Assembly (NCBI RefSeq): GCF_002163675.1
Contig: NZ_CP019334.1
Coordinates: forward strand, 3,267,501 to 3,331,500
Direction: 5' to 3'
Origin: Polaribacter sp. SA4-12
GTDB lineage: Bacteria; Bacteroidota; Bacteroidia; Flavobacteriales; Flavobacteriaceae
Length of the DNA stretch: 64,000 nucleotides
In this document: piece after piece, positions 8,398-59,155 of the stretch
Layout of the letters: every line of letters begins with the position of its first letter
Position numbering within the stretch: position 1 is the stretch's first letter
The notes under the pieces: model-generated
Told to the model about the DNA's origin: nothing
Database searches by the model: none
The model's input: the letters and a program-made list of their open reading frames with translations, nothing else
Translations under genes and position numbers: made by a program

Positions 8398-8654
8398 AAT
8401 TTCTAGTATTTAAAAGTTAATAAAATGGGTTTTCTTCTCGATAAAATTATCGGAAGATTTATTAAAGTTTGACTAGTTGGATTTTTGGCGTTAACATTTA
8501 TTTAACAAAAAAGATGCCAAGAAAAATTTTCACTCGTCATTGCGAGGGAAGAATGACTGAAGCAATCTGTTTATTTAAAAGGTGAATTAAGAGATTGCTT
8601 CGTTCCTCGCAATGATCTGTGTTAAAAAACTATTATTTATTGTTAAAATTTCTT

Positions 8655-9626
8655 TTATTTCAGAAAATATAAGTTTTGATGATTTTCATTGTAAATTTGT
8701 TTGTTAGTCGCAATAGAAAAAATTTGCTTTATTAATTTATTAGCTATTGCAATTTTAATTACTCTCTCGGGTTTTCCTTTTTCTTTAAGTCGTTCATACA
8801 TTTCGATACAATTTTTATTTACTCTTTTTGCAGACCAACTACATAAATACAAAAGTTTTCTAATTTGAGGTTTGCCCATTTTACAAATATGTCCTTTACC
8901 TTTTACACTTGTTCCTGATTGATATAGCCTTGGACTAAATCCTACAAAAGCAGTCAGTTGTTTATAGTTATCAAATTTTGTGAAATTATCTGTAATAACA
9001 CTCATCATAATAGCCGTTTTTAGCCCGATTCCTGGTATCGTTTTTATTCTTTCAACCGTGTCTTTATAAGCTAATCTTCCTATTTGCTCTATCTTTTTTT
9101 CAAACTTATCAATACGTCTTATTAATAATATTAGTACTTGTTTTAATTCTTTTCTAAGATCCGAACTCAACAAACCTGTTGCTTCAAAGGATTCTAATTG
9201 TCTTTTTGTTTGATGTTTTTGTTTTTTTAGTAATTCTAAAGCTGTGTAAAGTTGTTTAATTTCTATACTAGGTTTACTCTCTGGACACCATCTTTTTAAC
9301 TCATATTGAGCACCATATTCGGCAATTGTCTTTGCGTCTTTTTTATCTGTTTTTGCTCTATATAATCTTGTTTGACTATATCTTCTAATTATCAAAGGAT
9401 TTAATACACATACATTAAAACTAGATGCATGTAAAAAAGTTGCTAACTGAACATAATAAGGACCACTAGCCTCCATTACAATCCAGTCTGATGCACTAAT
9501 CAATTTAATAAATTGCTCAAAACCTGTATTTTGATTCTTAAAAATTTTGTGCATCCATTTATCTTTTTCTAAATAAGAAACATCAAAGGTTTGCTTACTA
9601 ATATCAATTCCTATAATTTTACTCAT
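8655..9626 (-). CDS. IS110-family transposase (DEDD/RuvC-like recombinase)
   Basis: This 323-residue recombinase starts at the ATG at 9626 (the frame is open to a TTG at 9668, but the family N-terminus begins MSKIIGIDISK). The RuvC-like DEDD domain shows GIDISKQTFD, MEASGPYY and KTDKKDAKTIA. The C-terminal Transposase_20 domain shows TIPGIGLKTA and the serine region SGTSVKGKG. IS110 recombinases cut and rejoin DNA guided by a bridge RNA made from the element's own non-coding end. The only amino acid difference from copy 2 is Met versus Ile in the KW(M/I)HKIF segment (base 9552). Confidence 0.95.
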   Translation of the reverse strand: MSKIIGIDISKQTFDVSYLEKDKWMHKIFKNQNTGFEQFIKLISASDWIVMEASGPYYVQLATFLHASSFNVCVLNPLIIRRYSQTRLYRAKTDKKDAKTIAEYGAQYELKRWCPESKPSIEIKQLYTALELLKKQKHQTKRQLESFEATGLLSSDLRKELKQVLILLIRRIDKFEKKIEQIGRLAYKDTVERIKTIPGIGLKTAIMMSVITDNFTKFDNYKQLTAFVGFSPRLYQSGTSVKGKGHICKMGKPQIRKLLYLCSWSAKRVNKNCIEMYERLKEKGKPERVIKIAIANKLIKQIFSIATNKQIYNENHQNLYFLK

Positions 9627-9649
9627 ATCAAATGTTTTTATAGAAAAAT

Positions 9650-9800
9650 TACTACATTTACTTATCAATCCTAAATACAGACTTGATGGTCTAATGATCT
9701 GTTCAAGTTTATGTAGTAAGGGGTAAAGTGATTAGCATTGCGAACGGTCTTTAATGACAAATGACGGACTATAATCTTTTCCTTTACCCTTACTTTTCTT
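9650..9800 (-). ncRNA. Candidate IS110 bridge RNA, copy 1
   Basis: On the transposase strand this segment folds into two enclosed loops. Loop 1 has an outer stem of 9715-9728 with 9782-9794, an inner stem GATTA/TAATC, and two single-stranded guides. CCGTCAT (9767-9761) matches the left target half and CGCAATG (9742-9736) is complementary to the right target half CATTGCG. A small GTC/GAC hairpin lies between them. Loop 2 is closed by CTACAT/ATGTAG (9716-9711 with 9657-9652). It holds ACAGATCATT (9702-9693), identical to the element's right end at 8611-8620, an AGAC/GTCT hairpin, then TAGGAT (9673-9668), complementary to the left end of copy 2. This is the known bridge-RNA layout. Exact RNA ends are unknown. 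Confidence 0.72.
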
Positions 9801-9866
9801 GTTAAATATTAAATCTAAATTTAAGCTTTTTAAAAACAGATCCTTATTTTTATAAACAGATGACAG

Positions 9867-10038
9867 AAAGTTGGCAAACAAGTCTAGCCCTGATTGAACG
9901 GTCTGTTTAATCTCTTTTTTTTATGCTGAACTCGATTCAGTATCTGTAGCAATAATGAAATTACTTTTTAAAAGTGAGAGATGCTGAAGTAAATTCAGCA
10001 TAAAAAAAAAGCGAGTAGTGAAAGCAGGAAATAGCTTC
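9867..10038 (+). repeat. A-family intergenic repeat, copy A1, with enlarged central hairpin
   Basis: It carries the 5' module (TTAGCCCTGATTGAACGG-like, here with CTAGCCC) and the 3' module (GCGAGTAGTGAAAGCAGG then AAATAGCTTC) seen in A2, A3 and A4. The centre is expanded: 9915-9930 pairs with 9994-10010 (T run plus ATGCTGAA against TTCAGCAT plus A run), enclosing two smaller CTGAA/TTCAG hairpins. The 3' module ends on the last base of folP. It begins 3 bp after the R1 right arm. Confidence 0.75.
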
Positions 10039-15076: not shown

Positions 15077-15202
15077 AGATGTTACTTCCACTTAAAAAAA
15101 GAAATTGTTAGATTTTATGGTCTAAAAACAATTTAATAAGTCTTTGATTTGTTTTAAATGGCAAAAATAAACAATTAATAACGAATTATTGAATTTAGAT
15201 TG

Positions 15203-15301
15203 TTAGCAAGTAGGTTGCGTTAGGGATTGAAGTGGAAATCCTTTTTTTGAGGTACGAAAAAAAAGATTGTAGCGTAAAGCCTGACCTGAAAGGAACGCCC
15301 A
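15203..15301 (-). repeat. C-family intergenic repeat, copy C1
   Basis: Read on the minus strand this is TGGGCGTTCC..., a pyrimidine-rich centre with a T run and an A run, then CTTCAATCCCTAACGCAACC and TACTTGCTAA. It matches C2 (18605-18701) over most of its length and the two parts of C3 (33746-35166). GCGTT and AACGC near the ends can pair. It lies in the 300-bp gap between the divergent CLC and crotonase genes. The rest of that gap shows nothing recognisable. Confidence 0.75.
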
Positions 15302-18604: not shown

Positions 18605-18701
18605 TTGGGCGTTCCCTAAAAAGGTCGCGCTTTACACTATATCTTTTTTGAAAAAACAAAAAAGGATGCCGTTTCAATCGCTAACGCAACCTACTTGCTA
18701 G
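18605..18701 (+). repeat. C-family intergenic repeat, copy C2
   Basis: It starts TGGGCGTTCCC, continues GGTCGCGCTTTAC, a T-rich then A-rich centre, and ends CAATCGCTAACGCAACC then TACTTGCTA. It is the inverted counterpart of C1 (15203-15301). It ends 5 bp before the -33 TTG of the rlmN promoter. Confidence 0.75.
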
Positions 18702-18705
18702 CAAA

Positions 18706-32225: not shown

Positions 32226-32342
32226 TCAGTTTTCAGTTGCAGTTTTTAGTAAAAGTTGATTGTTTGCAAGAGTTTGTCATTCCTGCGCAGGCAGGAATCT
32301 ATAATTGGCTGCTAAGTATTTTTTAATTTATTAATATTAAAA

Positions 32343-32446
32343 AAGTTAGCAAACAAGTTTAGCCCTGATTGAACGGTTTGTTTGAGCTCTTTTTTATTCC
32401 TTTTTAGGATAAAAAAAGCGAGTAGTGAAAGCAGGAAATAGCTTCA
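32343..32446 (+). repeat. A-family intergenic repeat, copy A2
   Basis: 104 bp, identical by eye to A4 (59044-59147). Central hairpin: TTTTTTATTCCT pairs with AGGATAAAAAA. It fills much of the gap between the LytS kinase and its LytTR regulator, ending 21 bp before the regulator's ATG. A short palindrome, ATTCCTGCGCAGGCAGGAAT, lies upstream at about 32279-32298. Confidence 0.8.
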
Positions 32447-32467
32447 AAAAAAGTAAAAGAAAAAACT

Positions 32468-33743: not shown

Positions 33744-33912
33744 GTTTTGGGCGTTACACAAGGTCGGGCTTTACTTTATTTTTTTTTAATACTGTCATTG
33801 CGAAGTTTACTTTTTTGTAAACTGTGGCAATCTCATTATAAGAAAGAGATTACTTCGTTTACACTCGTAATGATCTGTGTTAAAAAACTATTATTTATTG
33901 TTAAAATTTCTT

Positions 33913-34884
33913 TTATTTCAGAAAATATAAGTTTTGATGATTTTCATTGTAAATTTGTTTGTTAGTCGCAATAGAAAAAATTTGCTTTATTAATTTATTA
34001 GCTATTGCAATTTTAATTACTCTCTCGGGTTTTCCTTTTTCTTTAAGTCGTTCATACATTTCGATACAATTTTTATTTACTCTTTTTGCAGACCAACTAC
34101 ATAAATACAAAAGTTTTCTAATTTGAGGTTTGCCCATTTTACAAATATGTCCTTTACCTTTTACACTTGTTCCTGATTGATATAGCCTTGGACTAAATCC
34201 TACAAAAGCAGTCAGTTGTTTATAGTTATCAAATTTTGTGAAATTATCTGTAATAACACTCATCATAATAGCCGTTTTTAGCCCGATTCCTGGTATCGTT
34301 TTTATTCTTTCAACCGTGTCTTTATAAGCTAATCTTCCTATTTGCTCTATCTTTTTTTCAAACTTATCAATACGTCTTATTAATAATATTAGTACTTGTT
34401 TTAATTCTTTTCTAAGATCCGAACTCAACAAACCTGTTGCTTCAAAGGATTCTAATTGTCTTTTTGTTTGATGTTTTTGTTTTTTTAGTAATTCTAAAGC
34501 TGTGTAAAGTTGTTTAATTTCTATACTAGGTTTACTCTCTGGACACCATCTTTTTAACTCATATTGAGCACCATATTCGGCAATTGTCTTTGCGTCTTTT
34601 TTATCTGTTTTTGCTCTATATAATCTTGTTTGACTATATCTTCTAATTATCAAAGGATTTAATACACATACATTAAAACTAGATGCATGTAAAAAAGTTG
34701 CTAACTGAACATAATAAGGACCACTAGCCTCCATTACAATCCAGTCTGATGCACTAATCAATTTAATAAATTGCTCAAAACCTGTATTTTGATTCTTAAA
34801 AATTTTGTGAATCCATTTATCTTTTTCTAAATAAGAAACATCAAAGGTTTGCTTACTAATATCAATTCCTATAATTTTACTCAT
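33913..34884 (-). CDS. IS110-family transposase (DEDD/RuvC-like recombinase), second copy
   Basis: It is a 323-residue protein identical to the copy at 8655-9626 except for Ile in place of Met in the KW(M/I)HKIF segment (base 34810). The RuvC-like motifs (GIDISK, MEASGPYY, KTDKKDA) and the Transposase_20 domain (TIPGIGLKTA, SGTSVKGKG) are intact, with no frameshift, so it is probably active. The start is the ATG at 34884, as the 14 codons before it belong to the non-coding left end. Confidence 0.95.
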   Translation of the reverse strand: MSKIIGIDISKQTFDVSYLEKDKWIHKIFKNQNTGFEQFIKLISASDWIVMEASGPYYVQLATFLHASSFNVCVLNPLIIRRYSQTRLYRAKTDKKDAKTIAEYGAQYELKRWCPESKPSIEIKQLYTALELLKKQKHQTKRQLESFEATGLLSSDLRKELKQVLILLIRRIDKFEKKIEQIGRLAYKDTVERIKTIPGIGLKTAIMMSVITDNFTKFDNYKQLTAFVGFSPRLYQSGTSVKGKGHICKMGKPQIRKLLYLCSWSAKRVNKNCIEMYERLKEKGKPERVIKIAIANKLIKQIFSIATNKQIYNENHQNLYFLK

Positions 34885-34907
34885 ATCAAATGTTTTTATA
34901 GAAAAAT

Positions 34908-35058
34908 TACTACATTTACTTATCAATCCTAAATACAGACTTGATGGTCTAATGATCTGTTCAAGTTTATGTAGTAAGGGGTAAAGTGATTAGCATTGCG
35001 AACGGTCTTTAATGACAAATGACGGACTATAATCTTTTCCTTTACCCTTACTTTTCTT
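34908..35058 (-). ncRNA. Candidate IS110 bridge RNA, copy 2
   Basis: This is the same sequence and fold as in copy 1. Guides are at 35025-35019 (CCGTCAT), 35000-34994 (CGCAATG), 34960-34951 (ACAGATCATT) and 34931-34926 (TAGGAT). Here all four guides find partners at this copy's own flanks and ends. The right target half CATTACG has one mismatch to the guide. RNA ends are not known. Confidence 0.72.
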
Positions 35059-35190
35059 GTTAAATATTAAATCTAATTTAAGCTTTTTAAAAACAGATCC
35101 TTATTTTTACAAACATAGGATGACGTAAATCTATAATAAAAGGTTGCTACTTCAATCCCTAACGCAAATACAAAACGTAATAAATTCAAA

Positions 35191-59041: not shown

Positions 59042-59043
59042 AA

Positions 59044-59147
59044 AAAGTTAGCAAACAAGTTTAGCCCTGATTGAACGGTTTGTTTGAGCTCTTTTTTATT
59101 CCTTTTTAGGATAAAAAAAGCGAGTAGTGAAAGCAGGAAATAGCTTC
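59044..59147 (+). repeat. A-family intergenic repeat, copy A4
   Basis: 104 bp identical by eye to A2 at 32343-32446. It lies between the convergent glpQ and DUF gene, 2 bp after R3, and ends 8 bp before the stop codon of the gene at 59156-59752. Confidence 0.8.
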
Positions 59148-59155
59148 AAAAAAAA

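Follow-up and report, generated by a model that had tools for sequence, protein, structure and literature searches.

Introduction

Insertion sequences of the IS621 type, in which a bridge RNA guides the recombinase, were first described in 2024. For IS621 itself, Durrant et al. (2024, PMC11208160) describe an RNA that supports recombination when supplied in trans. The same source describes a long left end holding a two-loop RNA, in which the 5' side of each loop is identical to the top strand and the 3' side complementary, both overlapping on a dinucleotide core; IS621 enters palindromic repeats, and its promoter spans the circle junction. The ISEc21/seekRNA elements, as presented by Siddiquee et al. 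(2024, PMC11187229), are also of IS110 type, with non-coding sequence ahead of the transposase gene, RNA segments that match both target strands and a circle with a promoter. Circle-junction promoters are known in the IS110 family (PMC11208160; PMC11187229).

Here, we analysed a window of 64,000 nucleotides (GC 29%) from the genome of Polaribacter sp. SA4-12, a single contig of 3.99 Mb. In a first-pass annotation made from the sequence alone, the left end of an IS110 element in this window had been read as a bridge RNA whose four guide segments match its own target and ends. That observation is confirmed and its interpretation is supported: we consider it highly probable (about 0.93) that this is an IS110-group insertion sequence with a bridge RNA in its left end, whose guides read the target and the element's own ends. 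The sequence features listed above for IS621 and for the ISEc21/seekRNA elements recur here, with the same two Pfam domains as in IS621; a circle would be expected from the family, and a junction promoter is predicted from sequence. It is well supported that the element belongs to the IS621-type kind, and its mechanism is not new.

Results

The element and its copies

Comparison of copies with one another and with relatives establishes, at the sequence level, the ends of the element, its core, its sites and a conserved fold, as well as guide-DNA covariation for three of the four guides. The features of the two copies in the window are the following:

8614-9859, minus strand: copy 1 of the IS110-family element, flanked by AT cores on both sides; boundaries from copy comparison and the empty site, one AT core uncounted
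8655-9626, minus strand: DEDD recombinase (transposase), 323 aa and stop, with PF01548 and PF02371; the 41-nt right end follows the gene
9627-9859, minus strand: non-coding left end of copy 1, in which a CTA near the outer edge is gone compared with the other 13 copies
9860-9861, minus strand: AT core on the left-end side of copy 1
8612-8613, minus strand: AT core on the right-end side of copy 1
8536-8613, no strand: REP-like palindrome split by copy 1, resuming with GAC at 9862-9864
33872-35119, minus strand: copy 2 of the element, with its recombinase at 33913-34884 and cores at 33870-33871 and 35120-35121

The interval that had been called the left end indeed lies between the end of the transposase ATG (9626) and the core AT, and copy 1 thereby has 233 nt of left end against 41 nt of right end. 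A left end longer than the right, with the RNA inside it, is the arrangement of the IS110 group, and a DEDD recombinase with both Pfam domains and a length within the range of about 300-460 aa is that of the family. The IS1111 group was considered and rejected, since it needs the RNA in a long right end. The recombinase scored 196 bits against the NCBI model NF033542, 'IS110 family RNA-guided transposase' (cut-off 140), and at E 0.001 it matched two solved structures, ISCro4 and IS621. D8, E52, D94, D97, S237 and S240, which we take to be the catalytic residues, were all found in the recombinase and aligned with ISCro4. Among named organisms, the closest relatives found for the element are those of Polaribacter sp. 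Hel1_85, with recombinases up to 94% identical.

A genome-wide search gave 14 left ends. The recombinase frame is intact (323 residues) in 12 of the 14 copies and broken in two (L003/L028/L029 and L014/L027/L030/L032; L numbers denote loci and G numbers genomes), being either split or open only from residue 88; the left end of L014 has diverged as well. A DNA search of plasmids with the element gave no match, and none of the 11 pattern stretches in IMG/VR viral contigs encoded a relative. Matches below 60% identity were obtained for 31 phage records (10 among the matches listed).

The window also holds a direct repeat of 113 nt, 100% identical, at 32340-32452 and 59042-59154 (26.7 kb apart), and two Flavo-1 RNAs above gathering score, at 15201-15290 (plus strand) and 18619-18703 (minus strand), inverted and about 3.4 kb apart.

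Guides and two-loop RNA fold

The guides and the RNA cores were placed as follows:

9650-9794, minus strand: two-loop bridge RNA core of copy 1, from model R1 and pair counts; target loop (5') at about 9716-9794, donor loop at about 9650-9715
9761-9767, minus strand: left target guide CCGTCAT, of which GTC and the core AT are the bases fitting all sites
9736-9743, minus strand: right target guide TCGCAATG, complementary to (C)AT-TGCGA
9693-9702, minus strand: left donor guide ACAGATC-AT(T), ACAGATCATT, identical to the right end and core
9668-9673, minus strand: right donor guide TAGG-AT, the complement of AT-CCTA as present at the left end in the other 13 copies
34908-35052, minus strand: two-loop bridge RNA core of copy 2, with left target guide 35019-35025, right target guide 34994-35002, left donor guide 34951-34960 and right donor guide 34926-34931

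All four segments quoted by the first-pass annotation were found on the transposase strand, the right target guide having been quoted as CGCAATG (9736-9742). The site rebuilt by removing the element, GTC-AT-TGCG, agrees with the joined flanks and is also present uninterrupted in the same genome. The 10-base identity claimed between the left donor guide and the right end holds for nine element bases (ACAGATC and AT), but the tenth, T, belongs to the target. TAGGAT fits ATCCTA at the left end of copy 2, as proposed, and AT-CCTA is present in 13 copies. In copy 1, TAGGAT does not fit its own left end, AT-CTGTTTA, which is AT-CCTATGTTT elsewhere, the only such case among the 14. Because the bases meant to pair with the right donor guide are missing from copy 1, together with the -7 box, this copy is probably a poor donor.

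The loss of the two-loop structure in homologous left ends had been named as a possible refutation; the structure is kept. Two stem-loops are common to the left ends of our element and of relatives from Hel1_85, Epilithonimonas, Ignavibacteriota, Bacteroidales, Mucilaginibacter and Sphingobacteriaceae. In these seven sequences and 33 pairs, 90.4% of the cells are paired, against 32.5-50.2% when the structure is slid by 1 to 3 columns, a control that leans toward the structure since it was drawn on our own sequence. Both sides have changed in 13 pairs, and the covariation score is 0.369 versus 0.202 for shuffled alignments, with 0/500 shuffles as high; a count of further pair types in the same alignment was not above shuffles (269/500). 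The copy 2 core (146 nt) folds at -30.8 kcal/mol (z -2.58, 0/200 shuffles as low); for the left end of copy 1 taken as a whole, the advantage over shuffles is only modest (z -1.67, 10/200). Some guide bases are paired together in the minimum-energy folds of these single sequences (copy 1 left end and copy 2 core), and it is the comparative structure that supports the loops being open. Rfam gave no match within the element at gathering score and, at E up to 10 in 8600-9900, a single chance-level match, lysM-Prevotella (E 3.3).

Guide-DNA covariation among relatives

Relatives were found with the covariance model R1 in 8/395 genomes of a phylum sample and 6/395 of an order sample (both at E 1e-6), and in 15/395 of a class sample (at E 1e-5); our own genome is included each time and some matches belong to a sister subfamily. 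Loci found by protein were added to the set. The homologs tested were mostly from Bacteroidota, and 57 loci were examined; guide and target were both legible for 51 insertions, which belong to 19 elements. The 19-element test leaves out L046 (right end off the contig; guide GTCAA instead of GTCAT), L128 and L134, which are cut by contig ends, and L097, L121 and L095, whose right ends could not be located; the low-identity loci L048-L060, the partial matches L116, L117, L119 and L120 and the sister subfamily are left out as well. Five of eight places were read for G1376, and where two right-end candidates were present (L011, L012, L104, L115) the one ending the element was taken.

With the commonest target of each element, the right target guide matches the five bases beyond the core at 92/95 positions, perfectly in 16 of the 19 elements. 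When targets were shuffled among elements the mean was 56.7 and 0/100,000 shuffles were as good, although, given the shared ancestry of some elements (own element and Hel1_85; G1148 and G1326), such shuffles treat them as more independent than they are; when each distinct guide is counted once, 45/45 positions match. By insertion, this guide is exact in 41/51 and has one mismatch in 10/51, eight of these ten being on the second base after the core. The guide/target pairs include TCGCA/TGCGA (our element), TCAGA/TCTGA (Ignavibacteriota MAG), TCACC/GGTGA (Mucilaginibacter), CCGGA/TCCGG (Desulfobulbaceae MAG), TCTGG/CCAGA (G1148, whose type of target is GTCATCCAGA) and CGGGG/CCCCG (G1275). Moreover, one genome (G501) carries two guide variants, CCGGG/CCCGG at two sites and TCGGG/CCCGA at one, each of which fits its own sites; at the latter site, the left guide CGGTCAT also matches the flank CGGTCAT.

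The donor guides follow the ends of the element in the same manner. The left donor guide tracks the right end through ATC, TTC and TAC (17/19 exact, p ~1e-5) and is one base off in G1148 and G1326 (L122, L123); the right donor guide tracks the left end through CCTA, CGTA and CATA (13/18 exact, p 0.0004) and is off by one base in the other 5/18. In L124 and the G1376 copies, the left donor guide has AG instead of AT at the core position, and L125 has CT as its right-end core. Throughout the members of the subfamily used, the left target guide reads GTC, and so does the target, an invariance of GTCAT that is partly built in because R1 was made from GTCATT members and favours them. As guide and target never vary there, covariation is silent on this guide in our own subfamily. 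The guide assignment thus stands with covariation for the right target, left donor and right donor guides, but the left target guide fits the sites without varying.

Two relatives lie outside Bacteroidota, L045 (Desulfobulbaceae MAG) and L042 (Ignavibacteriota MAG), which suggests horizontal transfer unless these contigs are misbinned. Four other loci, L116, L119 and L120 (G931) and L117 (G907), match only the target-loop half of the RNA model (about positions 2-79) and are short owing to contig ends.

Insertion sites in host palindromes

Copies inserted at sites of another kind had also been proposed as a refutation, and the sites proved uniform. All 14 left ends are preceded by GTC-AT and all 14 copies sit at GTC-AT-TNCGA in a single polarity, their right ends being followed by AT-TGCGA in 12, AT-TACGA in one (L002) and AT-TTCGA in one; the last two deviate from TGCG by one base. 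By base composition, about 8 occurrences of GTCATTGCG would be expected in 4 Mb, and 0.13 in the window. The target GTCATTGCGA forms the end of a palindrome dispersed in the host genome, and the element therefore lands in REP-like repeats. Indeed, the genome contains 36 uninterrupted GTCATTGCGAGG sites and none of the reversed pattern, for an expectation by composition of about 0.06. A tandem array of palindromic units of about 90 bp each (L138, G000:C1:674300-679300) has seven empty units and two occupied by the element. At L011, the joined flanks reproduce an empty unit apart from small differences; at L007, the array end, they match an empty unit closely on the left and, on the right, for about the first 30 bases.

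Since the targets are palindromes, the recombinase might recognise the repeat, as hairpin or as sequence, by protein contacts, and the left-end segments would be captured target remnants or chance. A partner ATGAC arm is indeed found within 160 bases in 11/14 sites, and repeats of a similar type are targets in many host genomes. However, the arm is absent in 3/14 (L006, L009, L013), and protein contacts would not need the covariation of guide and target that is seen over 19 elements, always at a fixed position within one loop, nor that of the donor guides with the element's own ends. We regard this explanation as improbable. Still less probable is that the left-end structure guides nothing and serves the transposase gene only as a leader or regulatory RNA: its place immediately before the gene, and its expected co-transcription with the gene from a junction promoter, would suit this, but four segments fitting target and ends, and their covariation, would be left unexplained. 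Finally, it is hardly credible that the copies multiplied through segmental duplication or through homologous recombination between repeats, inheriting their site rather than choosing it, for although they are near-identical (98-100% in the left end) and within one repeat type, their left flanks are unrelated beyond GTC (except L007 and L011, in one tandem array), L009 lies in a different repeat type and L002 at TACGA, and unrelated genomes follow the same rule with other guides. A guide RNA that reads the sites is the explanation that we retain, and insertion into host palindromes would follow this RNA, the hairpin not being required.

Predicted circle-junction promoter

In promoters of the Bacteroidota type, TTG is the -33 element, with the usual spacing to the -7 box. 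The circle junction was written out for 17 elements, and TTG stands exactly 20 bases before a -7-like box in 15/15 of those outside our own and Hel1_85, where 0.23 would be expected at this column in 15 shuffled right ends, these elements sharing ancestry. The box is TAnnTTTG in 11 of the 15 and TATGTTTA, TATATTAG, TATACTTG and TATACTTG in the other four. Our own element and Hel1_85 keep the box TATGTTTG but have TAG in place of TTG. In the window, the box lies as follows:

35110-35117, minus strand: TATGTTTG, a -7 box resembling TAnnTTTG in the left end of copy 2, gone in copy 1

TAnnTTTG is given as the flavobacterial sigma-A -7 consensus in PMC9723704, and the predicted junction promoter may be of Bacteroidota type. 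The junction of L045 (Desulfobulbaceae MAG) also holds TTGACT-N17-TATGTT, with sigma-70-like spacing.

Sister subfamily

A sister IS110 subfamily (L061-L089, L094, L101 and others), with recombinases about 36-41% identical, was encountered among family, class and phylum relatives. Its flanks are like TATACACG on the left and TTTGTTRRRY on the right, which we take to resemble integron attC sites. Loop 1 matches, on its 5' side, longer stretches of its own left flank than of the left flanks of other loci (sum 180 vs 130.5; 0/2,000 shuffles), for 27/36 loci parsed and 9 unparsed, with L063, L074, L078, L083 and L118 kept though seemingly misplaced. In these sequences, the left-target-guide side of the loop thus covaries with the left flank. 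With the core position assumed, TTG lies 17 bases before TAAGTT-type boxes in 24/26 resolved junctions.

Discussion

Our results support a bridge-RNA element in which transcription, circle and strand exchange are proposed by analogy with the family. The element would be excised as a circle in which the right end, the AT core and the left end abut. A promoter formed across this junction would drive transcription of the left end, giving an RNA that holds two internal loops. In loop 1, GTC-AT would read the left half-site and TCGCA-AT, complementary to AT-TGCGA, the right half; in loop 2, ACAGATC-AT would read the right end and TAGG-AT, complementary to AT-CCTA, the left end. The four pairings might then be used by the recombinase to join circle and target at their common AT.

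The 51 readable insertions of 19 elements amount to a natural, replicated test of bridge-RNA targeting and show which bases are read, and one genome carries two differently programmed relatives. The covariance model R1 finds further relatives. At somewhat less than even odds, we propose a Bacteroidota-centred lineage in which the left target guide is fixed at GTC-AT, which many host palindromes share as their end, and the right target guide drifts and so retargets the element between host repeat families by few base changes; the donor CCTA would overlap the start of the -7 box, and guide RNA would be abundant only from a correctly closed circle. The interest of the element lies in replicated natural retargeting and in a likely promoter design. 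In a literature search covering few subscription journals or preprints, no paper joined IS621, bridge RNA and Bacteroid-.

Among solved structures, the best match to the recombinase is ISCro4 (PDB 9t56; E 8.2e-27, residues 4-306), with which D, E, D, D and the SGxSV motif line up, a distant relative compared by protein only. The similarity to the IS621 recombinase is also distant (E 9.6e-26). The ISEc21/seekRNA elements, as described in PMC11187229, differ in target and host, the likeness being drawn from the published description. In contrast to IS621 as described in PMC11208160, whose core is CT and whose target is ATCAGGCCTAC, the core is here AT, and three bases to the left and five to the right of it are read, a shorter left and a longer right part. 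A different repeat family is entered, and the predicted junction promoter looks Bacteroidota-like and not sigma-70. AT-core recombinases with short targets in AT-rich hosts offer material for comparison with IS621 and ISCro4.
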